This document shows positions 2,546 through 50,849 of a stretch of DNA of 57,312 bases, in pieces (position 1 is the stretch's first letter; each line of letters opens with the position of its first letter). The notes beneath the pieces were generated by a model. It was given only the letters and a program-made list of their open reading frames with translations, made no database searches and was not told where the DNA came from. The stretch is from Candidatus Siliceabacter maunaloa (GTDB lineage: Bacteria > Actinomycetota > Thermoleophilia > Solirubrobacterales > Solirubrobacteraceae). The position numbers and the translations under genes were made by a program. The DNA lies in contig JANDLV010000025.1 of NCBI GenBank assembly GCA_024330185.1, forward strand, positions 1 through 57,312, read 5' to 3'.

Positions 2546-2860
2546 TCAGTGCGTGGCGCAGGACATCGACGGATTGAAGCTGCGGATCGCGCGCAGCACG
2601 TCGATGCAGCGCTCCGGGTTCGCCGTGCTCAGCAGCGGCGTGGCGACGACGGCGGCCTCGCAGGGGCCGGGGTTGCCCTGACCGTCGCGCGGCGACATCG
2701 TGAACGTCGAGGGCCCGAGGATCTGGTAGCTCTCGATGACCTGGCTCTCGAGGGTCATGTGGTGGCTGGTGTAGCCGCGGGTGCCGCCCCACAGCCCGGT
2801 GCCGTGGCTGACGCCCTTGGGGATCTTGCAGTGCGTGAAGACGCCGGCGTCGGGGCCGCC
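2546..2860 (-). pseudogene. 3'-terminal fragment of hydrogenase large-subunit gene (duplicate of hhyL end)
   Basis: This 315-bp segment matches 5258-5572 with only a few differences (a synonymous change near 2556, and a Tyr-to-Cys change near 2830). It encodes the last ~104 residues of the large subunit, including the end FNPSMSCATH and the TGA. Upstream of 2860 the match stops abruptly and unrelated sequence follows, so this cannot make a functional subunit. It independently supports the unusual C-terminal motif of hhyL, because both copies have Ser where a ligand Cys is expected. Confidence 0.9.
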
Positions 2861-3053
2861 CCAGGTCCTCGGCGACCGCTGAACCACCCAACCGCACACG
2901 ACCGCTCGGGCCCCGCGCGACCGGCCCGGCCCAATCGTCAGGCCGAACGCCCACCTCTGCCGGTCCAAGCCGTACCTACGCTATGTGCGCTGTACACCTA
3001 TCGCGCGGAACTCGAAGCCCCTGTAATTTACTCCCGTACGGTTCATTGACGCG

Positions 3054-5257: not shown

Positions 5258-6946
5258 TCAGTGCGTCGCGCAGGACATCGACGGATTGAAGCTGCGGATC
5301 GCGCGCAGCACGTCGATGCAGCGCTCCGGGTTCGCCGTGCTCAGCAGCGGCGTGGCGACGACGGCGGCCTCGCAGGGGCCGGGGTTGCCCTGACCGTCGC
5401 GCGGCGACATCGTGAACGTCGAGGGCCCGAGGATCTGGTAGCTCTCGATGACCTGGCTCTCGAGGGTCATGTGGTGGCTGGTGTAGCCGCGGGTGCCGCC
5501 CCACAGCCCGGTGCCGTGGCTGACGCCCTTGGGGATCTTGTAGTGCGTGAAGACGCCGGCGTCGGGGCCGCCGCGGCGCATGAGGTCCAGGCCGAGCACC
5601 AGGTTCTCGTAGGCGACCAGCGTCGCCTGGGCGAGCGCGTAGGCGTGGGCGCGGTTGCGCTCCAGCGCGCCCCAGTGCCTGGGCGCGCGCCACTCCAGCT
5701 CGGCCGTGGGCAGCCACGCTTGGGGCACCGCCAGGCGCAGGCCGGAGCCGGTCGGCTCCATGAAGCTGCGGTGGGGCAGCTTCCTGGCCAGTGCCGTCAT
5801 CCACAGGCGGGCGGGGGCGCCGGTCTCCATTGGTTGGCGATCCCAGCGCGGGGCCGTGCACCAGGAGTACTTGCGCGCCGGGTCGGTCTGCCCGGGCTGG
5901 GGGATCGTCTCCTTGTTGGAGGGGTGATAGGCCGAGAGCGGGTTGCCGGCCGGGTCGCTGCGCAACCTGGGGGCCTGGGAGGTCCAGCTCTCGTAGAAGG
6001 AGTGATCGACGAACTCCTCGACGCCCATGTTGACCTGCTGGACGTCTGTGGTCCGCAGCCTGCCGTCGACGATCGCGCCCGGCGTGGACCAGCGCCGCTG
6101 CGCCCAGGCCGTGGCGGTCTCGAAGGTCCCGTCGTAGGCGTAGGGGTCGTCCCACTGGCCCAGGTCGATGAAGCTCGCCGGGCCCGCACCGACCTCTCGA
6201 AACCGGGGCTCGGCCTCGAGGAAGAAGTCGACGACGTCATCCCAGACCGCAACCACCTTCTTGGAGTAGTCGAAGAACTCGGTCACCCGCATCAGCATCA
6301 CGTTCATGTCCTGGGTGTCGATCGTGGAGCTGATCCCGCCCGGGGCGAGGGTCTGGGGGTGGGGGTACTTGCCGCCGATCAGCACGTAGGCCTCGCGCGC
6401 GCGGCGACCTCTGTGGAGCGCCTCCGTGTAGAGCTTGCCGCTGAAGCGGGTCAGGGCGGTCATGATGTCGGCGATCAGCTCGAAGCCGTGCGTCCCGCGG
6501 CCCGGGGCGGCGGTCTGCAGCGCGCGCTCCCACAGCTCCGGGTTGGTCTCGCGCACCACCGGCTCGGAGTAGTCCGGGCCGATACGGGTGAACAGGCTGG
6601 TCGGGTGGTCGTAGAGACACTCGAGGGCGGCCATCAGGTTGCGCGCCACGATGCCCATCGGCGGCGGCTGGATGCCGAACGCCATCTCGCACGCCAGCGC
6701 CGAGGCGGTGGCGTGCCCGCCGCCGCTGACGCCGCAGGCGCGGCTGGAGACGAAGATCGCGTCGCGCGGATCGCGGCCCTCGAGGATGACCTCGTAGCCG
6801 CGGAACAGCGTCGCGAGGGCGGAGGCGTCCAGGACCCGGCCACCCCCGACGTCGACCGACGCCTGGAAGGAGAGCGCGCCCGCCACCCGCGTGACCGGGT
6901 CGAAGTCCATCTCCCGCACGTCGTCGGCGGCCCGCGTGGCGGACAT
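5258..6946 (-). CDS. hhyL: [NiFe]-hydrogenase-like large subunit, group 1h-related, with altered metal ligands
   Basis: 562 residues resembling the actinobacterial high-affinity (group 1h/5) hydrogenase large subunit: GPDYSEPVVRETNPELWERA, IGGKYPHPQT, KYSWCTAPRW, GGTRGYTSHHM and an RSFNPxxxC end. The L1 motif is RACGVSGGGH (Cys71, Ser74) rather than RxCGxCxxxH. The L2 motif is NPSMSCATH (Ser556, Cys559) rather than DPCxxCxxH. Thus one bridging and one terminal Cys ligand are Ser. The N-terminal RxEG glutamate is Ala (TRVAG). The protein stops directly after the L2 His, so there is no C-terminal peptide for a maturation protease to remove. It follows hhyS with no gap, preceded by GAGGAG. It should be cytoplasmic or membrane-peripheral with HhyS. 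Either it is a divergent active clade or it no longer carries a standard NiFe site. Confidence 0.85.
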   Translation of the reverse strand: MSATRAADDVREMDFDPVTRVAGALSFQASVDVGGGRVLDASALATLFRGYEVILEGRDPRDAIFVSSRACGVSGGGHATASALACEMAFGIQPPPMGIVARNLMAALECLYDHPTSLFTRIGPDYSEPVVRETNPELWERALQTAAPGRGTHGFELIADIMTALTRFSGKLYTEALHRGRRAREAYVLIGGKYPHPQTLAPGGISSTIDTQDMNVMLMRVTEFFDYSKKVVAVWDDVVDFFLEAEPRFREVGAGPASFIDLGQWDDPYAYDGTFETATAWAQRRWSTPGAIVDGRLRTTDVQQVNMGVEEFVDHSFYESWTSQAPRLRSDPAGNPLSAYHPSNKETIPQPGQTDPARKYSWCTAPRWDRQPMETGAPARLWMTALARKLPHRSFMEPTGSGLRLAVPQAWLPTAELEWRAPRHWGALERNRAHAYALAQATLVAYENLVLGLDLMRRGGPDAGVFTHYKIPKGVSHGTGLWGGTRGYTSHHMTLESQVIESYQILGPSTFTMSPRDGQGNPGPCEAAVVATPLLSTANPERCIDVLRAIRSFNPSMSCATH

Positions 6947-8269
6947 CTAGATCTCCTCTCGCGACTTGAGCTTCTCGCCCAGGACGGGAACGCTCGCCTC
7001 GAGGTTGACGCCCTTCTGGCGCAGGATGTCGCGGCTGCCGGGCAGCGGCTGCTTCTTGTTGCGCTTGCCGTGATGCACCGTCCCGTTGTACTGCAGCTTC
7101 TTGTAGAAGAAGATGTTCACCTTGTCGAGGGGCTCTTGCCTCGCTTCGCGCGCCAGTCCCCACCCCGTCGGGACCTCTTGGGCGTTGTCCCACAGCGGCT
7201 CGCTGTTGCCGGTCTTCATCGACATCCGCCGCAGCCGCCGGATCCCGCTGCCGTAGACCTTGGACACCCCGCCGGAGATCGCCGACCCGGGCGGCGACTT
7301 GTAGAAGGGGCTGTACTTGTCGGGGAAGCCCGGCATGGTGCAGCCGATGCAGGCTCCGCCGGCGACCATGCACCCGCCCATGTGGTTGATGGCGCCGCGC
7401 TCGACGATGTTGCACTGCACCACCGGGCCCCAGCAGCCGATCTCCACCAGGCACTGGTTGTCGCCCGGCTCCTCGGCGAACACGCCCTCCTCGTAGTAGC
7501 CCGCCTTGGGGCAGTGGCGGTGCACCGTCTGCTCGAACTGCCACGCCGGGCGACCCAGGTCGTCGAAGTCGGGCAGCGGCCCGATCCCCTCGAGGTACTG
7601 GAGCACCATGGACAGGGTCTCGGTGAAGTTGTCGCCCACCGGCGCGCAGCCGGGGACGTTGATGATCGGCACGCCCTTCGACGAGCGGTAGTCGCGCCCC
7701 AGGTAGTCCATCAGGCCCATCGAGCCGGTGATGTTCCCGGCCGCCGCGGGGATCCCACCCCACGTCGCGCACGTCCCGATCGCGATCGTCGCGGCGGCAC
7801 CGGGAGCCAGAGCCCAGATCCAGTCGCTGGTTCGCACCGGCTGCTCGGGCCCACGTGACGAGGGCAGCGAGCGCGGCCAGTCCGCCCCGACGCCCAGCGC
7901 CGCGTACTGGCCGGAGCGCTCGAGGGTCTGATCGTCGGGGATCGAGCCCTCGACCACCATCACGTAAGCGGCTCCGAGCGTTCCCTCCGCCGCCTGGCGG
8001 AAGGGCTCCACGAAATCCCGGCCGACGTCGTCGGCGAGCATCGGGTGGTGGAGCACGACCTTGGGCAGGAAGGGGATGTTCCCCGAGACCAGGGACTCCA
8101 CCGGCGGATGGACCGCGCCCAGTGCGGACACCGAGCAGCCGTCGCAGCTCATGCCCGAAAGCCAGAAGACATGTACGACTCCGTCGGTGAAGGCACCCCG
8201 TGGCCCTCCCGAGGGACCCTGGGCCCACGGAGCCTCCTCCCGGTTGCTACGCGCTGACTTCCAAGCCAT
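6947..8269 (-). CDS. hhyS: [NiFe]-hydrogenase small subunit, group 1h-like
   Basis: 440 residues. Electron-transfer subunit carrying Fe-S clusters. The proximal cluster motif SCDGC (Cys42, Cys45) is followed by GTCATWGG and PGCAP. The medial/distal region has HCPKAGYYEEG, CLVEIGCWGP, CN and GGACIGCTMPGFPD. There is no Tat signal or C-terminal membrane helix, as in group 1h enzymes, so it is probably cytoplasmic or peripheral. The gene leads the hhyS-hhyL pair and is divergent from hypC. The C-terminal ~100 residues (KVNIFFYKKLQYNG, basic) are longer than in classical small subunits but typical of the long actinobacterial form. Its cluster ligands look intact, in contrast to the altered large subunit. 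Confidence 0.9.
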   Translation of the reverse strand: MAWKSARSNREEAPWAQGPSGGPRGAFTDGVVHVFWLSGMSCDGCSVSALGAVHPPVESLVSGNIPFLPKVVLHHPMLADDVGRDFVEPFRQAAEGTLGAAYVMVVEGSIPDDQTLERSGQYAALGVGADWPRSLPSSRGPEQPVRTSDWIWALAPGAAATIAIGTCATWGGIPAAAGNITGSMGLMDYLGRDYRSSKGVPIINVPGCAPVGDNFTETLSMVLQYLEGIGPLPDFDDLGRPAWQFEQTVHRHCPKAGYYEEGVFAEEPGDNQCLVEIGCWGPVVQCNIVERGAINHMGGCMVAGGACIGCTMPGFPDKYSPFYKSPPGSAISGGVSKVYGSGIRRLRRMSMKTGNSEPLWDNAQEVPTGWGLAREARQEPLDKVNIFFYKKLQYNGTVHHGKRNKKQPLPGSRDILRQKGVNLEASVPVLGEKLKSREEI

Positions 8270-8476
8270 CCGATCTCCTCTCCCACCTACCGACGCCGTG
8301 CCGACGCGACTATATGTTGTTGCACCCTAGCGGGCGTAAGAAGCGCCTGGGTAGATGTACCATACATACACCGGACCACAAAGAGAAGAGTGGCGCATGC
8401 GCGACGCAGCCGTAGGCTACGCTCGAAAGCTGGATTCGAACGGGCGGCCACTGGCCGTCAGGAGGAGCATCTAACC
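8270..8476. promoter_or_regulatory. Divergent promoter region between hhyS and hypC
   Basis: The only gap in the hydrogenase locus, about 207 bp, with a patch poorer in GC around 8310-8390. In the hhyS direction a TATAGT hexamer lies near 8311-8316. A GTAC-centred motif (GTACCATAC) sits near 8358. For hypC the Shine-Dalgarno GGAGGAG at 8461-8467 fixes the ATG at 8477. Exact -35 elements are not clear and no regulator is encoded next to it. Confidence 0.5.
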
Positions 8477-8755
8477 ATGTGCCTTGGCATCCCCGGCCAG
8501 ATCGTCGAGATGGTCGACGAGCACCATCACATCGCCAAGGCCGAGGTTTCCGGCGTACGCCGCGCCGTCAACATCGGTCTCCTCGCGGAGGGCCCCGACG
8601 CCGTCGGCGTGGGGGACTGGGTGCTGATCCACGTCGGCTTCGCGATGTCGAAGATCGACGAGGAGGAGGCGCGCTCCACGCGCGAGTTCCTGATCTCCCT
8701 CGGCGCTCCCTACGAGGAGGAGCTCGACGAGCTGGAGAAGAGCAGGATCGAATGA
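8477..8755 (+). CDS. hypC: Hydrogenase maturation chaperone HypC
   Basis: 92 residues beginning MCLGIPGQIVEM, the invariant HypC start in which Cys2 binds the Fe(CN)2CO precursor. The body GVRRAVNIGLL, VGDWVLIHVGFAMSKID is canonical. With HypD it carries the iron centre to the large subunit. The start is set by the MCLG motif and the GGAGGAG ribosome site at 8461. It leads the hyp operon: the SIS-HypC fusion, hypD and hypE follow. Confidence 0.95.
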   Translation: MCLGIPGQIVEMVDEHHHIAKAEVSGVRRAVNIGLLAEGPDAVGVGDWVLIHVGFAMSKIDEEEARSTREFLISLGAPYEEELDELEKSRIE

Positions 8756-8777: not shown

Positions 8778-10151
8778 ATGAGCGCTCAGGCCGCCGCGGG
8801 CCGGGAGGGTCTGGCCGTGGGGATCGCGGAGCGCGAGCGTGCGCTCGAGGTCTTCTTCGAGGCGGAGCAGGCGCCGCTGGCCAGCGCCTGCCACGAGTTG
8901 GCGCGGGCCTTCGCGCGCGGTGGCACCCTGGTCGCCTTCGGCACCGGCGCCGCCGCCACCGACGCGGCCCACGTCGCTGTCGAGTTCATGCATCCGGTGA
9001 TCGTGGGCAAGCGGGCGCTGCCGGCCATCGCGCTGACCAACGACGCCACCGGCGCCGCCCGCGGCGGCAGGCTGGCGGGCGCGGGCGACGTGGCGCTGGC
9101 GATCGCGCACGGGCCGCCCGATCCGGCGGTCGGGCGTTTCCTCGACGGCGCAAGCGAACGTGGCGCGCTCACGTTGGCCTTCGGCGCCGCCGGCTCGGTG
9201 CCCGTGGCCGACCACGGCTTCGCGGTGGCCAGCGAGGATCCGCAGCTCGTGCAGGAGGTCCACGAGACCGCCTACCACGTGCTGTGGGAGCTGGTGCACG
9301 TGTTCTTCGAGTCTCCAGGACTGCTGGACGAGGCGTGCATCACCTGCGGCGACGTGGCGGTGGAGGCCACCGTCGTGGCCGTGCGGGGCGCGACGGCGAT
9401 GGTGGAGCGCGAGGGCGCGCGCGAGGAGGTGGCCGTCGACCTGGTCGCAGACGTGCGCGAGGGTGACCTGCTGCTCTGCCACGCCGGCGTCGCGCTCGAG
9501 CGGCTGGCCGCGGGCGAGGGCGACGAGGGCGCCGACGACCCGAGCGGCTTCCTCTACCCGTTCATGTCCTCCGCCGCGCCCGCGGACCTCGACGCGATCC
9601 TCGCGGACGTGCGCACGTCGAGCGTGCGCAAGGGGCGCGACGCGATCGAGCTGCGCCGTGGCATCGACCTCGACGCCGTCCGTGCGTGCGCGGTGGCGGT
9701 GCGCGAGCGCCTGGACCGCGGCGGGCGGCTGATCGCGTTTGGCAACGGGGGCTCGTCGACCGACGCGCAGGACCTCGCCGCGGACGCGCTGGCGCGCGGC
9801 TGGCCGGCGCTGGCACTGACTGACGACGTGGCGACGGTGACGGCGGTGGGAAACGACGTGGGCTTTCAGAACGTCTTCTCGCGCCAGCTCATCTCGCTTG
9901 CGCGGCCCGCCGACGTGGCGGTCGCGATCACCACGAGCGGCTCGTCGGCCAACGTGCTCGCGGGCCTCGAGGAGGCGCGGCGGCGGACTCTGCTGACGGT
10001 CGGGCTGGCCGGCTATGACGGTGGTCGGCTGGCGGCGCTGGACTGGCTGGACCACCTGTTCGTGGTGGGAAGCGACTACATCCCGCGCCTGCAAGAGGCA
10101 CACGCGACCATCTATCACCTGATCCTCGAAGCGATTGGAGAGGCGCCATGA
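8778..10151 (+). CDS. SIS - HypC-like - SIS fusion protein in hyp operon
   Basis: 457 residues in three parts. Residues ~20-180 form a GmhA-like SIS (sugar isomerase) fold with degenerate motifs (AFGTGAAATDAAHVAVEF). Residues ~187-243 form a HypC/HupF-like barrel starting CITCGDVAVEATVVAV and ending GDLLLCHAGVAL, with Cys187 in the place of the HypC Cys2. Residues ~275-455 form a second, better preserved SIS domain (FGNGGSSTDAQDLAADAL, TTSGSSANVLAGL). Phosphoheptose-isomerase-like genes are known neighbours of actinobacterial hyp genes, but the fused role is unproven. The stop overlaps the hypD ATG (ATGA), so the two are translationally coupled. It probably acts in, or regulates, Fe-ligand assembly. 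Confidence 0.8.
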   Translation: MSAQAAAGREGLAVGIAERERALEVFFEAEQAPLASACHELARAFARGGTLVAFGTGAAATDAAHVAVEFMHPVIVGKRALPAIALTNDATGAARGGRLAGAGDVALAIAHGPPDPAVGRFLDGASERGALTLAFGAAGSVPVADHGFAVASEDPQLVQEVHETAYHVLWELVHVFFESPGLLDEACITCGDVAVEATVVAVRGATAMVEREGAREEVAVDLVADVREGDLLLCHAGVALERLAAGEGDEGADDPSGFLYPFMSSAAPADLDAILADVRTSSVRKGRDAIELRRGIDLDAVRACAVAVRERLDRGGRLIAFGNGGSSTDAQDLAADALARGWPALALTDDVATVTAVGNDVGFQNVFSRQLISLARPADVAVAITTSGSSANVLAGLEEARRRTLLTVGLAGYDGGRLAALDWLDHLFVVGSDYIPRLQEAHATIYHLILEAIGEAP

Positions 10152-11287
10152 GCATGCGTTTCGTCGACGAGTACCGCACCGGTGACGTGGCCCAGCGCCT
10201 CGCCACCCAGATCGCCGAGCTGGTCGAGCCCGGCCGCCAGTACAAGATCATGGAGGTCTGCGGCGGGCACACCCACTCGATCTACCAGCACGGCGTGGAG
10301 GATCTGCTGCCTGACGAGATCGAGCTGGTGCACGGGCCCGGCTGCCCGGTGTGCGTGATCCCGATGGGGCGCCAGGACGACGCGATCGCGATCGCGCAGC
10401 GTCCCGAGGTGATCTTCACGACCTTCGGGGACATGATGCGGGTGCCGGCTTCCAACGGGTCGCTGCTGGACGCCAAGTCGCGCGGCGCCGACGTGCGGAT
10501 GGTCTACTCGCCGCTGGACGCGCTCAAGCTCGCCCGCGACAACCCCGACCGCCACGTGGTGTTCTTCGCGATCGGCTTCGAGACGACGACGCCCTCCACC
10601 GCGGTGACGCTGCTGCGCGCCCGCGCGGAGGGGATCACCAACTTCTCGCTGTTCGTCAACCACGTGACGATCATCCCGGCGATCCGCGCGATCCTTGACT
10701 CGCCCGACCTGCGCCTGGACGGGTTCATCGGCCCCGGGCACGTGGCCACCGTCATCGGCACCCGTCCGTTTCGCTTCATCGCGCGCGACTTCCAGCGCCC
10801 GGTGGTGGTGTCGGGCTTCGAGCCCGTCGATGTGCTCCAGGGCGTCTACCAGGTGATGACCCAGCTTCGCGACGAGCGCTGCGAGGTCGAGAACCAGTAC
10901 AGCCGCGTGGTGCGCGACGAGGGCAACCCGGCCGCGCTGAGGGCGATCGGTCAGACGATGGAGCTGCGCACGACGTTCGAGTGGCGCGGGCTGGGATTCA
11001 TCTCCCACAGCGCGCTGAAGCTGCGCCCCGAGTTCGCCGACTGGGACGCCGAGGTGCTCTTCGACGTGCCCGGCGTGCGCGTCGCCGACCCCAAGGCCTG
11101 CCAGTGCGGCGAGGTCCTCAAGGGCGTCATCAAGCCCTGGGAATGCAAGGTCTTCGGCACCGCGTGCACCCCCGAGCACCCGATCGGGACCTGCATGGTC
11201 TCCAGCGAAGGGGCGTGCGCCGCGTACTACAACTACGGCCGCCACGCCGGCAGACGGCGGCGCGAGGAAGCACCCACGCCCGCGTGA
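10148..11287 (+). CDS. hypD: Hydrogenase maturation protein HypD
   Basis: 379 residues. Fe-S scaffold on which the Fe(CN)2CO unit is assembled with HypC and HypE. Conserved motifs are intact: MEVCGGHTHSIYQHG, HGPGCPVCVIP, GFETTTPSTA, GFIGPGHVATVIG, and the C-terminal CxCGEVLKG, KPWECKVFG, GTACTPEHPIGTCMVSSEG. ATGA overlap with the upstream fusion gene and GTGA overlap with hypE indicate one operon. Confidence 0.95.
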   Translation: MSMRFVDEYRTGDVAQRLATQIAELVEPGRQYKIMEVCGGHTHSIYQHGVEDLLPDEIELVHGPGCPVCVIPMGRQDDAIAIAQRPEVIFTTFGDMMRVPASNGSLLDAKSRGADVRMVYSPLDALKLARDNPDRHVVFFAIGFETTTPSTAVTLLRARAEGITNFSLFVNHVTIIPAIRAILDSPDLRLDGFIGPGHVATVIGTRPFRFIARDFQRPVVVSGFEPVDVLQGVYQVMTQLRDERCEVENQYSRVVRDEGNPAALRAIGQTMELRTTFEWRGLGFISHSALKLRPEFADWDAEVLFDVPGVRVADPKACQCGEVLKGVIKPWECKVFGTACTPEHPIGTCMVSSEGACAAYYNYGRHAGRRRREEAPTPA

Positions 11288-36294: not shown

Positions 36295-37083
36295 TCAGAC
36301 GCGGGTGGCGGCGCCGTTGCCCGCGATCGAGCCGTCGACCAGGCCGCGCGCGATCTGCTCGATCGCGGCGACCGCGGGGCCGTCGGGCGCGAAGTCCAGC
36401 GGTGAGCTGCCCGCCCGCTCGGCGCCGGGCATCGCCTCGTCGAAGGGGATGATCCCGCCGACCTCGAGCTCGTTGCGCTGCGCGAACTCGCGCACCGCCT
36501 CGAGGTCGCTCTCGTCGCGCACCTTGTTGGCGATCAGCGCGACCTGCTCGAGACCGAGGTCTCGACCCAGCGCCGCCATGCGACGACCGGTCTCGAGCGA
36601 CTTGAAGTAGGGCTCGACGACCAGCAGCATGGCGTCGGCGTACTGCGCGGTGCCGCGCGAGAGGTGCTCCGGGGACGCCTCGGTGTCGAGGATGCAGAAG
36701 TCGCCACGCGCTTCCGACGCCACTTCGATCACGCTACGAACCGTAGCGTGCATGCTGCACAGTCAGCCGGTGCCGGCGTGCTGAGGGTGCGCCATCACGA
36801 GCAGCGTCACGCCGTCAGGACCCCTCAGCGAATGCGACTCGCAGACCTCCTCGAGCGTCTTGGAGAGCTCGATCCCGTTCTCCGTGCGCCGCAGCAGGTT
36901 GCTCGGGAGCGTGGGCATGTCGTGCATGCGCTCCGGGGCGATGCCCAGCGTGACGACCAGGTTGGGGTTGGAGTCCCCATCGATGGCGATGACGCGGTGG
37001 CCGGCACGACCCAGCACCCGGGCGATAGTGCCCGAGAACGAGGTCTTGCCGGAACCGCCCTTGCCCGCGACCGCGAGCTTCAT
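36295..37083 (-). CDS. Selenocysteine-containing CooC/MinD-like ATPase (in-frame UGA at 36763-36765)
   Basis: Read through the UGA this is a 262-residue protein. The N-half has MKLAVAGKGGSGKTSFSGT (deviant Walker A) and DGDSNPNLVVTLGI; the C-half has CILDTEASPEHLSRG, VVEPYFKSLETGRRM and LIANKVRDESDLE, the CooC family pattern. The UGA is residue 107 in HAGTG-U-LCSMHATV. A paralogue at 49730 also has UGA here, and the one at 44725 has Cys108 in the same column. In CooC, which loads nickel into CO dehydrogenase, a C-x-C pair binds the metal; here it is U-x-C. A 9-bp hairpin follows the UGA at SECIS distance. It is the last gene, 3 bp after three coiled-coil membrane proteins. Cytoplasmic nucleotide-driven metal or redox switch is inferred. 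Automatic callers will split it in two. Confidence 0.85.
36730..36750 (-). promoter_or_regulatory. SECIS-like hairpin after UGA (ATPase 1)
   Basis: CACGCTACG-GTT-CGTAGCGTG, a perfect 9-bp stem, starts 12 nt after the UGA, so the apical loop lies about 20 nt downstream. This is the geometry of bacterial SECIS elements, with GGUU at the apex (GGUC in E. coli fdhF). Confidence 0.75.
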
Positions 37084-37086
37084 CGG

Positions 37087-37965
37087 TTACTGCGCGCAGT
37101 AATCGGTGGGGCCCGCGAGGTTGATCAGGTCCGAGCAGTCGATCGAGTTCGCGTGGCCGTGGATCGCGCCGGGACCATCGGTGCTGTGCCCCGCGGACCC
37201 GAGCAGGCTTGGTCCGACGAACTCGCGGATGGGCGTGAAGTCGCTCTTGAGCAGGCGCGCACCCTCGATGCCCACGTCCGCGCGCCTGTTGATGGCGGCG
37301 ACCCCGGTGTCGATCGACTGCGTCACCGGGTCGAGCTCCCGGAACGTGCCCAGGATGCTGTCCACCGACGCCTTGATCGAGCCGCCGTCGGTGGCGCCGA
37401 TCGGGCCGACCTTGTCGAAGACCGACGAGACGCGGCGGTTGATCGACCCGACGTCGGCGCCGACCGAGCTGACCCTGCCGTTGATCGACTGCACGTTCCC
37501 ACCGATCGAGTTGACGGTGCCGTTGATCGACACCACGTTTCCGTTGATCGCGCCGACCGTGTCGTTGATCGAACCGGCCGTGTCGTTGATCGCCAGGGCA
37601 TTGCCGTTGATCGCCTCCGCGGTCCCGTTGATGGCCCTGGCGGTCACGAGGATCGACGCCGCCCTGCGGTCGATGCTCCTGGCCTCCCCGATGATGCGGT
37701 CGGCCTGACCGGTGAGGGGGGCGGCCGCGTCGCGGATCTGCGCGGTGAGGTCTGCCGTCTCCTCGGCGAGCTTGACGTTGTCGGTGTTCTCGTCGATCGG
37801 CAGGACCTGGGCGTTGATCAGCGGGAGGGCGTTGTCGATCTCGCGTGCGTTGACCAGTGTGCCGGTGAGCATCAGGACCGCCGCGAGCGCCCAGACGATC
37901 ACCACGACGAGCACGATCCCCGGCAGTGAGGGCGCCAGCCCGAGTGTTGCGCTTCTCTCTCTCAT
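37087..37965 (-). CDS. Single-pass membrane protein with heptad (IN-x5) coiled-coil repeats, 1
   Basis: 292 residues: basic N-terminus, one transmembrane helix (GIVLVVVIVWALAAVLML, ~16-34), then an extracytoplasmic stretch. Residues ~111-182 repeat every seven residues as INGTAEA, INGNALA, INDTAGS, INDTVGA and so on, placing Ile and Val/Ala at coiled-coil core positions with Asn beside the Ile. Two Cys lie in the C-terminal tail (SIDCSDL, TDYCAQ). Homologous in design to the next two upstream genes; the Sec ATPase follows 3 bp later. No known domain recognised; the layout recalls MCE proteins but no MCE domain is seen. Confidence 0.8.
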   Translation of the reverse strand: MRERSATLGLAPSLPGIVLVVVIVWALAAVLMLTGTLVNAREIDNALPLINAQVLPIDENTDNVKLAEETADLTAQIRDAAAPLTGQADRIIGEARSIDRRAASILVTARAINGTAEAINGNALAINDTAGSINDTVGAINGNVVSINGTVNSIGGNVQSINGRVSSVGADVGSINRRVSSVFDKVGPIGATDGGSIKASVDSILGTFRELDPVTQSIDTGVAAINRRADVGIEGARLLKSDFTPIREFVGPSLLGSAGHSTDGPGAIHGHANSIDCSDLINLAGPTDYCAQ

Positions 37966-37974
37966 CGTGATCTC

Positions 37975-38937
37975 CTAGCAGGGGCCGTTTCGCACGAGCC
38001 CTGAGTCCAGGGTCTCCAAGAGCTCCGAGGCCGCTCCCAGGAGGTCCGCGGACCCCTCGCTCAGGATCGGCGCCTCGCAGATGCTCGTGAGGTGCTCGTT
38101 GACCTGCACCAGCCCACCCGTGATCTCGAGTGCGTCGTTCCTGACCGGCAGCAGGCCTGCGGGGTTGTTGCCGGGGCCGGTGAGCTCGTTGTCCTCATCG
38201 TTGGCATCGCCCTCCCGCTCGAAGGGACCGCCGTTGAGGAACCGCACCCGGCGCCAGATGCCGTTGGTGCCGAGGGCCTCCGCCGAGGGTGGGTCTGTCG
38301 CCTGCGACCTCTGGGCGTCCTTCAGCGTGGTGTCGATCCGGCCCGCCAACCTGCGGATGCTGACGAGCTCACTCGAGGTGTCGTCCAGCGAGGGCGAGAT
38401 GTCCTGGAGCGTGCCCGAGGTGTCGTCCAGCGAGGGCGAGATGCCCTGGAGGGTCCCCGAGGTGTCGTCCAGCGAGCCCGAGATGGTCACCAGCGTGCCC
38501 GAGGTGTCCACCAGCAGGCCGGTGATGTCCCCGAGCTGGTTGGAGGTGTCCACCAGCGATGCATCGGTGTTCACCAGCGAGCCGTCGGTGTCCACCAGCG
38601 ATGCGTCGGTGTCCCCCAGCGAGGAGTCGATGGATCCCAGCCTGCCGCGGATCGACCCCAGCTCGCCGAGGATGTCGTCGGCCTGACCCGGGATCGGCTT
38701 CAGCGACGCGTCGATGAGCCTCAGGTTCTTGTTGATGGTCTCGATGGAGTCGGGCAGCGGTGCGGCGTCGCCGCCGATGCCCGTGACCGCGGAGTCGGCC
38801 TCGAACAGGTTGTCGTCAATCGACGAGAGCGAGCTGACGATGCCGATCAGGAAGCCGATGACGACCACCACGACGAGCGCGGCGATGGTGATCCAGATCC
38901 AGAGCCACCTGATGAACGTGGGTGCTGCTTCACGCAT
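37975..38937 (-). CDS. Single-pass membrane protein with heptad coiled-coil repeats, 2
   Basis: 320 residues: transmembrane helix WIWITIAALVVVVVIGFLIG (~13-33), then heptads of the form SLVDTDG, SLVNTDA, TLVTISG, SLDDTSG, TLQDISP (~residues 95-195). The C-terminal domain has RRVRFLNGGPFEREGD and two Cys (TSICEAP, RNGPC at the very end). Middle gene of the coiled-coil triad, 12 bp after the first and 9 bp before the third. Function unknown; extracytoplasmic rod-like oligomer is inferred. Confidence 0.8.
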   Translation of the reverse strand: MREAAPTFIRWLWIWITIAALVVVVVIGFLIGIVSSLSSIDDNLFEADSAVTGIGGDAAPLPDSIETINKNLRLIDASLKPIPGQADDILGELGSIRGRLGSIDSSLGDTDASLVDTDGSLVNTDASLVDTSNQLGDITGLLVDTSGTLVTISGSLDDTSGTLQGISPSLDDTSGTLQDISPSLDDTSSELVSIRRLAGRIDTTLKDAQRSQATDPPSAEALGTNGIWRRVRFLNGGPFEREGDANDEDNELTGPGNNPAGLLPVRNDALEITGGLVQVNEHLTSICEAPILSEGSADLLGAASELLETLDSGLVRNGPC

Positions 38938-38949
38938 GTCTATCGCCTC

Positions 38950-40113
38950 CTATCGGCCCAGTCCGGGAAGTTCGGGGAGCAGGCGCTCCAGCACGTCGCG
39001 CGGAGGCCGCTCGTCGGGGTCCCTGTCGCCACCGAGGAGGCCGGGCACCAGGTCGTCGACGAGCTCGTTGACCTGCCTGGGCGTCAGCTTCCTCAGGTCC
39101 ACGTCCACGGGCAGCCGGTCGGTCACCCGGTCGGTCACCGCGGGCCGGTCGGGCTGCGAGGACTGGCTCCTCGACCCACCGCTTCCGCCGGACGCGGGTG
39201 CTTCGAGCTTGTTGTTCCTCTCGACCGGCGGAGGCTTGTCGAGCATCTCCGCAGGCTCATCATCATCATCATCTGACTGCCTAGTGGCCGAGACACCCTG
39301 GCTTGACTGGGGTGTCCCCCCCTGCGACTGACCCTGACAGTCGCCGTCGTCCCCGGCCTGTCCGAAGAGCTTGCGGTCGATGCATGCGGCGGTCTGGTTG
39401 GCATCCCCGGCCTGGCCGAGGATGTTGCCCGTGTCGCCCTTGACCGTCGCCACGAGGTCGAGGGTCACGTCGAGGTTCGTGTTGATCAACTCCACGTCCC
39501 TGTCGACCTTGCGCGCGGTGTCGATGATCGAGGCCGCCAGGGAGTCGATGCCGACGGCGCTGTCGTTGATCTCGCCGGCGCTGGTGTTGATCCTGCCGGC
39601 GCTCGAGTTGATCTCGCCGGCGCTGGTGTCGATGCTGCCCGCGCTCGAGTTGATCGCGCCGGCCGTGGAGTTGATGGAGCCCGCGCTCGAGTTGATCTCT
39701 CCGGCCGCGCCGTTGATCTCGCCGGCGTTGGCGTTGATGGTGCCGGCCGTCGTGTTGATGCTGCCGGCCGTCGAGTTGATGCTGCCGGCCGTCGAGTTGA
39801 TGCTGCCGGCCTTCGAGTTGATCGAGGCGGCGCGCGTGTCGATGCCCGTCGCCGTGGAGACGATGCGACCGAGCTGGGTGTCCAGCGGCCGGGCCGAGTT
39901 GAGGATCGACTCAGCCAGCTCGTTGGTGCGGTTGAGCTGGACGACCGAATCGGTCGCCTCGTTGATGCCACGCCCGGTGGTGGCGATGTTCTGCGCCTTG
40001 GCGTTGATCGCCTGCGCCTCTTGGACCGTGCGCGCCAACAGCACTGCGGCAACCCCGACTACTGCCACCACAATGACCAGCACGATCACGCTCGTGAACG
40101 TGAAACCTCTCAT
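38950..40113 (-). CDS. Single-pass membrane protein with heptad (IN-x5) coiled-coil repeats, 3; first gene of operon
   Basis: 387 residues from ATG 40113 (AAGGAGGCG upstream). Transmembrane helix SVIVLVIVVAVVGVAAVLL (~8-27), then ~15 heptads such as INSKAGS, INSTAGS, INTTAGT, INANAGE, INSSAGR (~85-190), then a Cys pair region (TAACIDRK, DGDCQG), an acidic/Gln-rich linker and a Pro/Arg-rich end (PRQVNELVDDLVPGLLGG). The DNA repeats every 21 bp with strong codon bias for INS, so the repeat probably grew by local duplication. Leads the four-gene operon ending in the Sec ATPase. Confidence 0.8.
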   Translation of the reverse strand: MRGFTFTSVIVLVIVVAVVGVAAVLLARTVQEAQAINAKAQNIATTGRGINEATDSVVQLNRTNELAESILNSARPLDTQLGRIVSTATGIDTRAASINSKAGSINSTAGSINSTAGSINTTAGTINANAGEINGAAGEINSSAGSINSTAGAINSSAGSIDTSAGEINSSAGRINTSAGEINDSAVGIDSLAASIIDTARKVDRDVELINTNLDVTLDLVATVKGDTGNILGQAGDANQTAACIDRKLFGQAGDDGDCQGQSQGGTPQSSQGVSATRQSDDDDDEPAEMLDKPPPVERNNKLEAPASGGSGGSRSQSSQPDRPAVTDRVTDRLPVDVDLRKLTPRQVNELVDDLVPGLLGGDRDPDERPPRDVLERLLPELPGLGR

Positions 40114-40165
40114 CGACCAGCACGCCTCCTTCGCAGGTTCTCTCCCGGCACTGCAACTGGCCACG

Positions 40166-40195
40166 AGACTAGACGTAAGTGCGCCCGACATACAA
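40166..40195 (-). promoter_or_regulatory. Promoter of the coiled-coil/Sec-ATPase operon
   Basis: Minus strand TTGTAT (40190-40195), 18-bp spacer, TAGTCT (40166-40171), about 50 bp before the ATG of the first gene. Confidence 0.4.
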
Positions 40196-42761: not shown

Positions 42762-43517
42762 GTGAGGGTCGCCGTGGTCGGGAAGGGCGGAGCGGGCAAG
42801 TCCGTGATCTCGGGCACGATGGCGCGCGTCCTGGCCCGCGACGGCAGCCGCGTGCTCGCATTGGACTCGGACCTCCTGCCCGGCCTGTCGCTGAGCCTGG
42901 GGGCGGGCCCGGATCCGCCCGAGCCGCCGCTGCGCGAGGCCGCCGAGAAGGACGAGGACGGGCGCTGGCGGCTGAAGAAGGGCATCGGTCCGGTGCGCGC
43001 GGTCAGACGCTACGCGACCGACGCGCCCGACGGCATCCGCCTGCTGCAGTGCGGCAAGACCCCGCGCGAGGGACTGGAGCCGATCATGGGGGCGGTGAAC
43101 GCGTTCTACCGGGTGGTCCACCGCCTGGAGCGGGCGCGGACCTTCGACGACTGGGCCCTGGTCGGCGATCTCCCCGCGGGCCCCCGTCAGGTCGCCTTCG
43201 GCTGGGCGCCCTACGCGCAGACCTTCGTCGCGGTGGTCCAGCCGACGGCGCAGTCGGCGCTGGCGGCCCGGCGGGTCGTGCGCGTCGCGCGCATGCGCGA
43301 GGGGGCGCGGGCGGTGCTCGTGGCCAATCGCGTCACCGGCCCTGCCGACGTCCGTCACGTGGAGAAGCTCGTGGGCGAGTCCGTGCTGGCCGCCGTGCCG
43401 GCCGACGAGGGCGTGGCCCGCGCCGAGCGGCTGGGAATCGCGCCGATCGACCACGCTCCCGCCTCCCCGGCGGTCGCGGAGATCGAGCGACTTGTGGCAG
43501 CGCTCGCCGGGGGCTAG
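42762..43517 (+). CDS. CooC/MinD-like P-loop ATPase without C-x-C (paralogue)
   Basis: 251 residues from GTG. Deviant Walker A VAVVGKGGAGKSVISG and DSDLLPGLSLSLG start. The middle differs from the others: instead of C-x-C there is LLQCGKTPREGLEPIMG with a single Cys. The CooC acidic motif is GDLPAGPRQVAFG rather than DxEAxxEH. C-terminal VLVANRVTGPADV and the PADEGVARAERLG tail are alike. It is followed 10 bp later by a second ATPase, so the two may form a pair. Confidence 0.8.
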   Translation: MRVAVVGKGGAGKSVISGTMARVLARDGSRVLALDSDLLPGLSLSLGAGPDPPEPPLREAAEKDEDGRWRLKKGIGPVRAVRRYATDAPDGIRLLQCGKTPREGLEPIMGAVNAFYRVVHRLERARTFDDWALVGDLPAGPRQVAFGWAPYAQTFVAVVQPTAQSALAARRVVRVARMREGARAVLVANRVTGPADVRHVEKLVGESVLAAVPADEGVARAERLGIAPIDHAPASPAVAEIERLVAALAGG

Positions 43518-43527
43518 CCTTCGGGTC

Positions 43528-44265
43528 ATGAAGATCGCGGTGGCAGGCAAGGGCGGGGCGGGCAAGACCACGGTGTCGGGCACGGTGGCGCGCGCGCTTG
43601 CGCGCGCAGGACACTCGGTGCTCGCTCTCGACGCGGACGCCAACCCGATGCTCGGCGTCTCGCTGGGGGTCGGTCCCGAGCAGACCGAGCTGCTGCTCGG
43701 CGTGCGCCAGGGCGTCGAGGCCGGTGAGGTTGAGCACGAGCCCACCGTCGAGGGGATGGTCGAGCGCTTCGGCGCCGACGCTCCCGACGGCGTGCGGCTC
43801 GTGGTCGCCAATCGGATCGAGACCGAGAACCCGGGCTGCCAGTGCTGCGGGGTATCCCCCGACCAGCTCCTGCGCGAGCTGGAGGACGGCGGCCGCACGG
43901 TGATCTGCGACCTCGAGGCCGGCTTGGGCACGGTCCTCCGCCTGGCCCCCGGCAACGCCGACGTCGTCCTCGTGGTCGCCAACCCGACCGCGAAGGCGCT
44001 CGAGGTGGCGCGCCGCGCGGTCGCCATAGCCGCCGACAAGACCGAGGTGATCGTGCTCGCCAACCGGGTCCGCGACGACGCGGACCTCGAGGCCATCGCC
44101 GCCGCGATCCCCGATCGCGAGCTGATCGTCATCCCCGAGGACGCGACCATCGCCCGCGCCGACCGCGACGGGCTCGCGCCGATCGATCTCGACCCGTACT
44201 CACCGGGGGTCCAAGCCCTCGTGGCGCTCGCGGACCGCCTAGCGGGCGCGCCGGTCCCGGCCTGA
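43528..44265 (+). CDS. CooC-like ATPase with CQCC metal-binding motif
   Basis: 245 residues. MKIAVAGKGGAGKTTVSGT, DADANPMLGVSLG, then ENPGCQCCGVSPDQLLREL with Cys104, Cys106 and Cys107, the C-x-C motif of CooC nickel chaperones. It continues ICDLEAGLGTVLRLAPGN, ANPTAKALEVARR and VLANRVRDDADLE. It shows the all-Cys state of the motif that is U-x-C in the two Sec paralogues. No CO dehydrogenase gene is in the window, so the client is unknown. Confidence 0.85.
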   Translation: MKIAVAGKGGAGKTTVSGTVARALARAGHSVLALDADANPMLGVSLGVGPEQTELLLGVRQGVEAGEVEHEPTVEGMVERFGADAPDGVRLVVANRIETENPGCQCCGVSPDQLLRELEDGGRTVICDLEAGLGTVLRLAPGNADVVLVVANPTAKALEVARRAVAIAADKTEVIVLANRVRDDADLEAIAAAIPDRELIVIPEDATIARADRDGLAPIDLDPYSPGVQALVALADRLAGAPVPA

Positions 44266-44295: not shown

Positions 44296-44736
44296 GTGAT
44301 CGGCGACCTCCTCCCGCAGCGTCTGGTCATGCGCGCGGTCGAGAGCCTGCGCGAGGTCGCCGACGCCACGCGCCGACTGCCCGAGATCGAACGGGCCGTG
44401 GATGCTCGCCTCGAGACCCTCATGGAGCGCCTCGACCACATGACGCGCGCGGTCGAGGCGCTCGTCCCGTTGCTGGAGCGTCAGGGCGAGACGACATCAG
44501 CGCTGCTGGCGCCGCTCGAGACCAACGCGGCCAACACCGAGAGGATGCAGCGCGAGCTCACCGTCACGAGGGAGGCCATCGAGACCGTACCCCCAGAGCT
44601 CGCGGCCATCCGCAAGGGGATGGAGTCGGTCGAGCGCAGCATGGGGGAGATCCGCGAGGTCGTCGAGCCGCTGGCCTCGGCGACCGACCGCATCGGGCGC
44701 CTCAGCGACCGCCTGCCAGGCTCCTCAGCCGACTAG
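44296..44736 (+). CDS. Coiled-coil protein of unknown function
   Basis: 146 residues from GTG; almost entirely amphipathic helix with heptads (ERAVDARLETLMERLDHM, RMQRELTVTREAIE, ERSMGEIREVVEPL). No membrane segment. It follows the CQCC ATPase by 30 bp and overlaps convergently, by 12 bp, the next ATPase gene. It may be the soluble counterpart of the membrane coiled-coil proteins in this region. Confidence 0.65.
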   Translation: MIGDLLPQRLVMRAVESLREVADATRRLPEIERAVDARLETLMERLDHMTRAVEALVPLLERQGETTSALLAPLETNAANTERMQRELTVTREAIETVPPELAAIRKGMESVERSMGEIREVVEPLASATDRIGRLSDRLPGSSAD

Positions 44737-45507
44737 CCGGGCGCTGTTCCCGTCAGCGATCAGGCGCGCGGCCAGATCGTCGATCGCACGGATCGCGGGG
44801 GCGTCGGGGTCGTGGTCCAGCGGCGCGCGCAGCGCGCGCTCGGCCGCGTGGAAGCAATCGTCATGGGGGACGGCGCCGGCGAGCGCGATACCGTGACGCT
44901 CCGCGTAGGCGGCGACGATCGCGAGGTCGCTCTCGTCACGCACCTTGTTGGCGATCAGCGCGACGTGAGGCAGCCCCAGGTCGCGCGCCAGGACGGCGAC
45001 GCGCCTGCCGGTCTCCAGCGACGTCCCGTAGGGCTCGACGACCGCGTACATCGCGTCGGCGTGCTCGGCGGTCGCCACGAGCAGGTGCTCGGTCGAAGCC
45101 TCCAGATCCACGATGCAGACATCCTCGTCACCGCTCGGCGCAGCGCCGATCACGCCGCGCACGGCCATGTGCATGGCGCCCAGGCACCCGGTCGCGGCCT
45201 CTCTCGGCTCGGCCGCCACGAGCAGCGACACCCCGTCGGGCGCGGACACCGCGGCGCTGTCGCAGATCTCCGCCAGCGACATGGCGAGCTCATAGACGCC
45301 TTCCTCGTTGCGGCGCACGATCTCGGCCGGGAAGGTCGGCAGGCTGGAGATCCGGGCCGCCGGGATACCGAGGGTGAGCGACAGGTTGGGGTTGAGGTCG
45401 TTGTCGACCGCGAGCACGCGCCGGCCACGGCGACCCATCATGCGGGCCAGCGTCCCGGTGATCGAGGTCTTCCCGACGCCTCCCTTGCCGGCGATGGCCA
45501 ACTTCAT
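44725..45507 (-). CDS. CooC-like ATPase, Cys homologue of the Sec ATPases
   Basis: 260 residues. MKLAIAGKGGVGKTSITGT, DNDLNPNLSLTLGIP, VCIVDLEASTEHLLVAT, VVEPYGTSLETGRRV and LIANKVRDESDLA are nearly collinear with the Sec proteins. At the Sec column it has Cys108 in EAATGCLGAMHMAVRGVIG, so it is C-L-G and lacks the second Cys. This alignment is the best internal evidence that UGA encodes selenocysteine in the paralogues. Probably co-transcribed with the two-helix protein upstream (45533-45838). Confidence 0.85.
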   Translation of the reverse strand: MKLAIAGKGGVGKTSITGTLARMMGRRGRRVLAVDNDLNPNLSLTLGIPAARISSLPTFPAEIVRRNEEGVYELAMSLAEICDSAAVSAPDGVSLLVAAEPREAATGCLGAMHMAVRGVIGAAPSGDEDVCIVDLEASTEHLLVATAEHADAMYAVVEPYGTSLETGRRVAVLARDLGLPHVALIANKVRDESDLAIVAAYAERHGIALAGAVPHDDCFHAAERALRAPLDHDPDAPAIRAIDDLAARLIADGNSARLVG

Positions 45508-46253: not shown

Positions 46254-46637
46254 TCAGCCTCGGGCCGGCTCGGGCGCAGGCACTCCGGCCCGCCGCAGCG
46301 CGACGAACTCCTCGTAGCGACCGAGGAAGGTGTCGAGTGTCCCGCGCGCCTCGGCCAGGCCCTTGGCCCGGTCGTGCAGTTCCTCCATTCCCACGCGGGT
46401 GATCTCGTAGATGCGGCGGGCGGGCCCGAAGCTGGAGGGCTCCCACGCCGAGCGCACGAGCCCCTCACCCTCGAGCTTGCGCAGCGAGCGGTACAGGCCG
46501 CCGGGATCTGAGCCCTCGAAGCCGAACGGCCGCAGGCGCTCGAGCAGCTCGTAGCCGTGGGCCTGTTGCTCGCGTAGAAGCAGCAGCAGGCAGGGCCGCA
46601 GGAAGTTCTTCGGCAGGGTCGGCAGGATCGGATCCAT
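46254..46637 (-). CDS. PadR-family transcriptional regulator
   Basis: 127 residues. FLRPCLLLLLREQQAHGYELLERL, DPGGLYRSLRKLEGEGLVRSAWE and GPARRIYEITRVGMEELHDRA are the PadR winged helix; a C-terminal helix (LDTFLGRYEEFVAL) dimerises. It sits 12 bp downstream of the Cys-rich winged-helix gene, so both may be one transcript controlling the flanking ATPase and membrane genes. Confidence 0.85.
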   Translation of the reverse strand: MDPILPTLPKNFLRPCLLLLLREQQAHGYELLERLRPFGFEGSDPGGLYRSLRKLEGEGLVRSAWEPSSFGPARRIYEITRVGMEELHDRAKGLAEARGTLDTFLGRYEEFVALRRAGVPAPEPARG

Positions 46638-46649
46638 GGCGACGCGTAC

Positions 46650-47009
46650 TCAGTGGTGGGCGTGAGCCCGGCCTTCGATGCAGTCGGCGGCCGCGTCGGG
46701 CGACGAGTTGCACCAGCAGTCCTCGTCGCACTCGCCGTGCCCGGGCTTCGTGAGGTCGGCGAACTCATCGGCGAAGCCGCGCTTGCCGGTCTCCTCCCCG
46801 ACGGCCGTCAGACCGTATCCCCCGTCGGCGGGGGCGAGATAGCCGTCGGCCACGAATCGATCGACATAGGCCGCGAGCGTGTCGATGGGCACGACGAGGA
46901 AGGTCGACAGCTCCAGCACAGTCGGCGACGTCGCAAGGCCCTCGGCACGCATCCAGTACATCGCCTGGAGCAGTTCATCCCTGACCCTCAACGCCTCAAG
47001 CTCGCCCAC
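46650..47009 (-). CDS. Winged-helix protein with HGECDEDCWC metal-binding motif, paralogue 1
   Basis: 119 residues. N-terminal helices (LEALRVRDELLQAMYWMRAEGL), a winged-helix-like core (LSTFLVVPIDTLAAYVDRFVADGYL), and TKPGHGECDEDCWCN with Cys94, Cys98, Cys100 and His91, ending HAHH. The paralogue at 50478 has the same motif at the same positions and overlaps a Sec ATPase gene. The motif could bind a metal or Fe-S cluster. Divergent from the five-gene small membrane protein operon. Confidence 0.75.
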   Translation of the reverse strand: MGELEALRVRDELLQAMYWMRAEGLATSPTVLELSTFLVVPIDTLAAYVDRFVADGYLAPADGGYGLTAVGEETGKRGFADEFADLTKPGHGECDEDCWCNSSPDAAADCIEGRAHAHH

Positions 47010-49729: not shown

Positions 49730-50491
49730 ATGAAGCTCGCCGTGGCCGGCAAGGGAGGCTCGGGCAAGACCTCCATCTCGGGAACGATGGCCCGTCTGCT
49801 CGCGCGCCAGGGACACCGCGTCCTGGCCATCGACGGTGACTCCAACCCCAACCTCGCACTGACGCTGGGCATCGCGCCCGAGCGGATGGGCGAGATGCCC
49901 ACCCTCTCGCGCGACATGCTGACCCGCACCGAGTCGGGCGGCGCGACGCTGACCCAGACCCTCGACGAGGTCCGCGCCACCCACTCGACGACCGGCCCGG
50001 ATGGGGTGAGCCTGCTCATCATGGCCCACCCCCACCACGCGGGCACCGGGTGACTGTGCTCCCTCCACGCTACGGTCCGTAGCGTCATCGAAGCAGCACC
50101 GGAGCAGGACGTGTGCATCCTCGACACGGAAGCCTCTCCCGAGCACCTCTCGCGCGGGACCGCGCGCTACGCGGACGGGATGCTGGTGGTGGTCGAGCCC
50201 TACTACAAGTCGCTGGAGACCGGGCGGCGCATGGCCGTGCTGGGCCTCGACCTGAGCCTGGAGCGCGTCGGCCTGGTGGCCAACAAGGTCCGCGACGAGC
50301 GTGAGCTGGAGGCGGTGACGCAGTTCGCCGCCCAGCACGAGCTCGATGTCGCCGGCGTGATCCCCTTCGACGAGCGCATGCCCGGGGCCGAGCGGGCCGG
50401 GGCGGCGCCGCTGGACTTCGCCCCCGACTCCGACGCCGTGGCCGCCATCGGCGCTCTGGCGCAGAACTGGGTCATCGATGGACGAGCTTGA
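49730..50491 (+). CDS. Selenocysteine-containing CooC/MinD-like ATPase (in-frame UGA at 50051-50053)
   Basis: 253 residues when UGA is decoded. MKLAVAGKGGSGKTSISGTM, DGDSNPNLALTLGIAPERM, then HAGTG-U-LCSLHATVRSV with Sec at residue 108 and Cys at 110, followed by VCILDTEASPEHLSRG, VVEPYYKSLETGRRM, LVANKVRDERELE and PFDERMPGAERAG. Both halves are conserved with the minus-strand copy at 36295, which rules out a simple nonsense mutation in one gene. A hairpin with a GGUC apex follows the UGA. The gene overlaps the start of the HGECDEDCWC winged-helix gene by 14 bp. The U-x-C site suggests binding of nickel or another soft metal, or thiol/selenol redox switching, coupled to ATP. Confidence 0.87.
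50067..50085 (+). promoter_or_regulatory. SECIS-like hairpin after UGA (ATPase 2)
   Basis: ACGCTACG-GTC-CGTAGCGT, a perfect 8-bp stem beginning 13 nt after the UGA; the apical GGUC starts about 20 nt after the UGA. GGUC is also the apex of the E. coli fdhF SECIS bound by SelB. Confidence 0.78.
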
Positions 50492-50849
50492 GATCCTGCG
50501 TGTCCGCGACGAGGTGCTCCAGGCCATGTACTGGATGCGCGCGGAGGGCCTGGCGGAGGCCCCGACGGCGGCCGAGCTGGCACGCTTCCTCGTCGTGCCC
50601 GCCGGCACCCTGGGCGCCTACCTCGATCGCTTCGTGACCGACGGGCTGCTCGAGCCGACCGACCAGGGCTTCCGGCTCAGCGCCCAAGGCGTCGAGACGG
50701 GCAAGCGCACCTTTGCCGAGGAGTTCGCCGACGTGACCAAGCCCGGCCACGGCGAGTGCGACGAGGACTGCTGGTGCAACGCCTCGCCCGAGGAGGCCAT
50801 GCGCTGCTGCGGGGAGCAACGAACGGAGCAGGTTCCCTCCCACCACTGA
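50478..50849 (+). CDS. Winged-helix protein with HGECDEDCWC motif, paralogue 2
   Basis: 123 residues, overlapping the Sec ATPase by 14 bp. LEILRVRDEVLQAMYWMRAEGL, LARFLVVPAGTLGAYLDRFVTDGLL, TKPGHGECDEDCWCNAS (Cys94, Cys98, Cys100), a further CC pair and a terminal HH. The identical motif and spacing in the 46650 paralogue mark a metal or cluster site. Physical coupling with the Sec ATPase suggests that they work together, for example as metal donor/acceptor or sensor. Confidence 0.78.
   Translation: MDELEILRVRDEVLQAMYWMRAEGLAEAPTAAELARFLVVPAGTLGAYLDRFVTDGLLEPTDQGFRLSAQGVETGKRTFAEEFADVTKPGHGECDEDCWCNASPEEAMRCCGEQRTEQVPSHH

Follow-up and report, generated by a model that had tools for sequence, protein, structure and literature searches.

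The known CooC ATPase serves carbon monoxide dehydrogenase (CODH), and in CooC1 both monomers contribute Cys112 and Cys114 to a zinc site at the dimer interface, for which nickel competes (PMC6006190). A 2026 review counts 119 prokaryotic selenoprotein families or subfamilies, none of them a CooC, MinD or ParA ATPase, and the nearest precedent it holds is a CobW-related GTPase (PMC13188914). A search of the open-access literature (subscription papers and preprints were outside its scope) gave no earlier report of selenocysteine (Sec) with CooC or of hydrogenase with CooC-like proteins, which agrees with a first-pass annotation that knew of no described selenoprotein in the CooC family. A 57,312-nucleotide stretch of Candidatus Siliceabacter maunaloa (Solirubrobacteraceae; contig JANDLV010000025.1), here called the window in its entirety, carries two genes for CooC-type ATPases, copy 1 and copy 2, each interrupted by an in-frame UGA. 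The best explanation overall, at a probability of roughly 0.85, is that they encode predicted Sec-containing CooC-type ATPases that would insert nickel during [NiFe]-hydrogenase maturation in place of HypA and HypB.

Read through with TGA as U, copy 1 gives a single protein that ends on TGA and has no further internal stop. The interrupting codon lies where the first-pass annotation had placed it, on the minus strand, which it had left unstated. Under translation table 11 the gene falls into two open reading frames, 36763-37083 (106 amino acids) and 36295-36753 (152 amino acids), and standard annotation would give each such gene as two broken pieces, as had been anticipated. The joined protein matches six places in its own genome, namely itself and five relatives. 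One of these is copy 2, which the first-pass annotation had overlooked and which has a UGA in the same column. The copies are 73% identical overall, 73% before the UGA and 74% after it, and they differ mostly at third codon positions in both halves; the downstream half is thus intact. UGA also terminates both genes. The two paralogues named earlier, one with Cys in the UGA column and one with a CQC motif, are present in the window as described.

The assignment to a CooC-type ATPase is supported by sequence and fold. The best sequence match of copy 1 in the PDB is CooC1 of Carboxydothermus hydrogenoformans (3kje, E 1.4e-26), and an AlphaFold model (mean confidence score, pLDDT, 89) has the same structure as its top fold match. 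The protein has a MinD-type fold with the deviant Walker A motif GKGGSGKT, and its GTGULC aligns over GSQCYC of CooC1, which places the UGA at the first Cys of C-x-C as the first-pass annotation had proposed. No NCBIfam model of the MinD, ParA, BchL or NifH type reaches its curated cut-off, all scoring far below. The earlier description as a selenoprotein in the CooC family is better narrowed to the type of ATPase, because the CODH link that defines CooC is not seen in the gene clusters compared.

Close homologues (E <= 1e-40) were found in 17 of the 299 genomes that make up the sample of the class Thermoleophilia, and 12 of the 17 carry the UGA form; a scan of GTDB genomes gave 49 homologous loci. 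Among the first 29 motif-bearing homologues compared, the UGA column holds U in 17 and Cys in 12, and throughout the homologues compared it is U or C and never another residue, so that the random variation considered by the first-pass annotation is not seen. In all, 28 distinct sequences carry the UGA in this column, a recurrence far beyond chance; they come from Actinomycetota, Thermomicrobiota/Chloroflexota and Dormibacterota, with Solirubrobacteraceae, Thermoleophilaceae and Gaiellaceae among the families represented. The motif is U-N-C in the UGA forms of Thermomicrobiales/Chloroflexota and C-M-C in haloarchaeal homologues, Dormibacterota have one U copy and one C copy, and two homologues carry U-L-G, that is, a single chalcogen per monomer. 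A tree of 56 proteins requires at least 7 changes between U and C, and supported branches force at least 4 of these. Two oddities were met in this collection. A metagenome-assembled genome labelled Chloroflexi (L084) has a copy that falls with those of Thermoleophilia, probably through misbinning, and in one genome represented by two contigs (L107, L108) the frame of the UGA-form ATPase shifts about 30 residues after the UGA, by sequencing error or in a decayed copy.

A hairpin resembling a selenocysteine insertion sequence (SECIS) follows the UGA. In both window genes it has a three-base GUN loop and starts 12-13 nucleotides past the UGA, and the 9-bp hairpin reported earlier for copy 1 was recovered. 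The 28 distinct UGA forms have, past the UGA, a hairpin whose loop contains GU; there 93% of stem cells are paired, as against 58% in 25 Cys sequences, in which the hairpin is broken. Of the eight stem pairs, four differ in both bases from lineage to lineage, the stem being GCUAC/GUAGC in Thermoleophilia, ACCAC/GUGGU in Thermomicrobiales and GCCGC/GCGGC in Dormibacterota. Doubly changed cells number 22 against a shuffled mean of 5.7, with none of 500 shuffles as high, and sliding the partner by 1-3 columns lowers pairing to 17-45%. Codon choice is constrained as well: in the HATVRS-type genes (n = 23), GCT, CGT and AGC each occur at the hairpin in 23/23, whereas in the rest of these genes their shares among synonymous codons are 7%, 9% and 15%. 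The UGA-bearing formate dehydrogenase genes of related genomes have, at similar spacing, a hairpin whose loop is GGUCU. One Cys form (L029), whose genome (G242) gave no SelA or tRNA-Sec hit, keeps just the 3' half of the stem sequence. Folding energy alone was rejected as evidence for a SECIS because GC-rich coding RNA folds well anyway; UGA and Cys forms are similar in mean energy. The support comes instead from conservation, base-pair changes and synonymous-codon constraint, and the SECIS-type hairpin with GU in its apical loop is conserved beyond protein coding.

The genome of the window has the decoding machinery that the first-pass annotation had proposed to look for. A tRNA-Sec scores 65.5 bits, above the Rfam cut-off, with anticodon TCA according to ARAGORN, and SelA, SelB and SelD are all above their cut-offs, SelA and SelB adjoining on one contig. 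Formate dehydrogenase alpha (TIGR01553) was not found in this genome, and this common selenoprotein is therefore not the reason for its Sec system. SelA occurs in 10 of the 12 UGA-form genomes, compared with 151 of 299 in the class sample. A 97% complete assembly, G077, has a formate dehydrogenase with an in-frame TGA and no SelA or tRNA-Sec hit, probably through an assembly gap, and was set aside as evidence of Sec loss. Because the UGA is conserved and swaps only with Cys, a SECIS-type hairpin follows it and the genome holds the full Sec-decoding set, it is very likely that both window genes encode selenoproteins, with Sec predicted at the UGA.

The neighbourhood of the ATPase genes points to [NiFe]-hydrogenase. 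Among the 49 loci, direct search found a hydrogenase subunit gene in 24, which belong to bacteria and to the haloarchaeon Natronomonas, and HypA or HypB in none. Clusters around the ATPase include the large and small [NiFe]-hydrogenase subunits, hydrogenase proteases, a NifU-Rieske protein, HypC/HypD, a PadR regulator (homologues in 39 of 70 compared stretches, which overlap) and a Cys/His protein resembling helix-turn-helix (HTH) proteins. The last, whose conserved tail reads HGECDxDCWC...HH, adjoins the ATPase in many loci; it has no Pfam match above cut-off and might serve as a metal donor or sensor. The UGA gene of Thermomicrobiales lies directly 5' of the small-subunit gene. Across 17 genomes, eight (G121, G224, G296, G003, G079, G162, G179 and G223) have hydrogenase and no HypA or HypB above cut-off, and their sole detected hydrogenases accompany CooC-type ATPases. 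The seven genomes with both HypA and HypB have another hydrogenase no more than a few kb away, on the same contig; for G000 that second hydrogenase is on C78 and the window hydrogenase on C39. The linkage suggests [NiFe]-hydrogenase as the nickel enzyme, with no evidence for CODH here: no CODH cluster was recognised in the clusters around the ATPase gene, no genome-wide search for cooS having been made. Two other ideas were rejected, that the window hydrogenase is a [NiFeSe] enzyme (its C-terminal motif carries Cys) and that the locus is linked to a defence system (a marginal PADLOC hit only).

Nickel insertion in place of HypA/HypB is proposed because of this gene distribution and the analogy with CooC1, and a role as nickel ATPase for hydrogenases without HypA/HypB is likely. 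The metal site at the dimer interface of this CooC-type (MinD/SIMIBI) ATPase would be U-x-C in place of C-x-C. Two Sec and two Cys of the dimer would probably bind Ni(II), in the manner of the four Cys of CooC1, and an ATP-driven conformational change would release it. Its client would, with similar probability, be the large subunit of the neighbouring [NiFe]-hydrogenase, the ATPase and the HTH/Cys-His companion together doing the nickel job of HypA/HypB. More tentatively, a selenolate might be of advantage because, as a ligand, it is softer than a thiolate and easier to re-reduce, which would suit aerobic soil bacteria scavenging trace nickel.

Several points weigh against this proposal. The folding energy of the copy-1 hairpin is unremarkable (z -1.0), and the mean synonymous z across UGA forms is -0.67. 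Two UGA-form genomes (G179, G237), both fragmented assemblies, are without SelA or tRNA-Sec hits, and two others (G191, G231) have SelA and no tRNA-Sec hit; the survey of Sec machinery covered the Thermoleophilia class sample. CooC of R. rubrum is dispensable for hydrogenase (PMC6006190), and it did not itself bind nickel tightly. The window ATPase copies lie about 28 and about 41 kb from the hydrogenase, and where genomes are incomplete the lack of a gene carries little weight.

The alternatives to Sec fare poorly. If the UGA were a true stop, the locus would either be a pseudogene or consist of two halves translated separately, as the two table 11 reading frames of copy 1 and an ATG 9 nucleotides downstream of its UGA would allow. 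That Met is replaced by Leu in copy 2 and other homologues, the halves of the two copies diverge equally, and the UGA keeps its column in at least three phyla with Cys in the remainder, which leaves a true stop highly improbable. A residue other than Sec, through reassignment to Trp or non-specific readthrough, is credited no more than that. The residue at the UGA is predicted from sequence, which leaves room for such recoding; yet UGA is not reassigned, since both genes end on it, its column alternates with Cys only, the conserved hairpin resembles those of known Sec genes in loop and spacing, and the Sec machinery is present.

The rivals that accept Sec concern its function. The U-x-C site might be redox-active (a selenenylsulfide), handle selenium or a metalloid, or act as the redox switch of a regulator, without nickel delivery. 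A redox function is ascribed to most known selenoproteins (PMC13188914), the ATPase often stands beside an HTH/Cys-rich protein and a PadR regulator, and the two U-L-G homologues have one chalcogen per monomer. The coincidence of U-x-C with the metal ligands of CooC1, and a hydrogenase linkage that recurs in several phyla with HypA/HypB missing, make a role of this kind unlikely. Alternatively, the ATPase could supply nickel to another enzyme, such as CODH or urease, its linkage to hydrogenase being incidental. The known CooC is a precedent for CODH (PMC6006190), but the recurrent clusters hold hydrogenase genes, and they do so in unrelated phyla; we regard this reading as improbable. A nickel-inserting selenoprotein ATPase for [NiFe]-hydrogenase is preferred to all four.

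A second type of CooC-like ATPase in the window, with the motif NPGCxCCG, may also have Sec relatives. Paralogues of this type have in-frame UGA at the Cys motif in two other genomes: one (L094/L060; L094:1032, plus strand) reads NPG-U-T-U-C-G with two UGA codons, and the other (L107:10369, plus strand) reads PP-C-P-U-C-G with one. Downstream, each has a 7-bp hairpin whose loop is AGUU. The type is a possible second selenoprotein family, a lead from two genomes. The broadest form of the proposal stands at even odds: a selenium-dependent, HypA/HypB-independent nickel pathway for the [NiFe]-hydrogenases of aerobic soil bacteria, comprising CooC-like selenoprotein ATPases of two kinds (one U-x-C, the other in some cases U-x-U-C) and a dedicated Cys/His-rich HTH companion. 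It would extend over Actinomycetota, Thermomicrobiota/Chloroflexota and Dormibacterota, haloarchaea having the Cys versions.

Table 1. Features of the window relevant to the predicted Sec-containing ATPases and the hydrogenase.
Feature	Position	Strand	Remarks
Predicted Sec-containing CooC-type ATPase, copy 1	36295..37083	-	262 amino acids; U107-L-C109; start ATG 37083, terminal TGA 36297-36295
In-frame UGA of copy 1	36763..36765	-	codon 107; aligned with first Cys (Cys112) of CooC1 C-x-C
Bacterial SECIS-like hairpin of copy 1	36730..36750	-	9 bp; loop GUU; 12 nucleotides after UGA
Predicted Sec-containing CooC-type ATPase, copy 2	49730..50491	+	253 amino acids; U108-L-C110
In-frame UGA of copy 2	50051..50053	+	
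SECIS-like hairpin of copy 2	50067..50085	+	8 bp; loop GUC
Small HTH-like protein, Cys/His-rich tail	50478..50849	+	HGECDEDCWC...HH; overlaps 3' end of copy 2
Second HTH/Cys-His companion	46650..47009	-	near Cys paralogue
Cys paralogue of same ATPase family	44725..45507	-	motif C-L-G (AATGCLG); without UGA
PadR-family regulator	46254..46637	-	
Second type of CooC-like ATPase	43528..44265	+	NPGCQCCGV; Cys in window, UGA (predicted Sec) in two other genomes
Third type of CooC-like ATPase	42762..43517	+	without Cys motif
[NiFe]-hydrogenase large subunit	5258..6946	-	C-terminus SMSCATH (Cys, not Sec)
[NiFe]-hydrogenase small subunit	6947..8269	-	
HypC-like protein	8390..8755	+	MCLGIPGQI...; recognised from sequence
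HypD	10148..11287	+	

Beyond these features, a fragment at 2546-2968 (minus strand) matches only the C-terminal part of the hydrogenase large subunit (profile 418-508) and is likely the remnant of a second copy. Directly upstream of copy 1, at 37087-40191 (minus strand), lie three genes for membrane-anchored proteins with long SIN/SID repeated coiled-coil-like segments.

These genes add a well-supported selenoprotein family in which the predicted Sec sits in the proposed metal-carrier site of a P-loop ATPase. They would tie selenium to [NiFe]-hydrogenase maturation, the recurrence of UGA forms beside hydrogen-oxidising enzymes in several phyla suggesting that selenium helps load nickel into hydrogenases, and they offer a testable answer to where hydrogenases without HypA/HypB obtain their nickel. 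Work on desert soils has associated group 1l hydrogenases with Actinobacteriota (PMC7677003).

Compared with CooC1 (PDB 3kje, 3kji), the window ATPases share the fold, the deviant Walker A motif (GKGGxGKT) and the position of C-x-C; they differ in the predicted Sec for the first Cys, at about 26% identity, and in genomic partner, which is [NiFe]-hydrogenase for ATPases of the window type and CODH for CooC1. HypA/HypB would share the proposed role of nickel insertion into [NiFe]-hydrogenase and likewise use an NTPase. HypB, however, is a G3E-type GTPase from a different family, and the HypA/HypB and CooC-type systems appear complementary in distribution. The CobW-related protein of cobalamin synthesis (NF041053; PMC13188914) is also a predicted selenoprotein from a P-loop NTPase metal-chaperone family, but it is a G3E GTPase with U-x-x-C and no MinD/CooC ATPase. 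With formate dehydrogenase and other bacterial selenoproteins the window genes have in common the UGA, the downstream GU-loop hairpin and SelA/B/C/D; those proteins belong to different families and carry their Sec in an enzyme active site, whereas the CooC-type Sec would lie in a proposed metal-carrier site.
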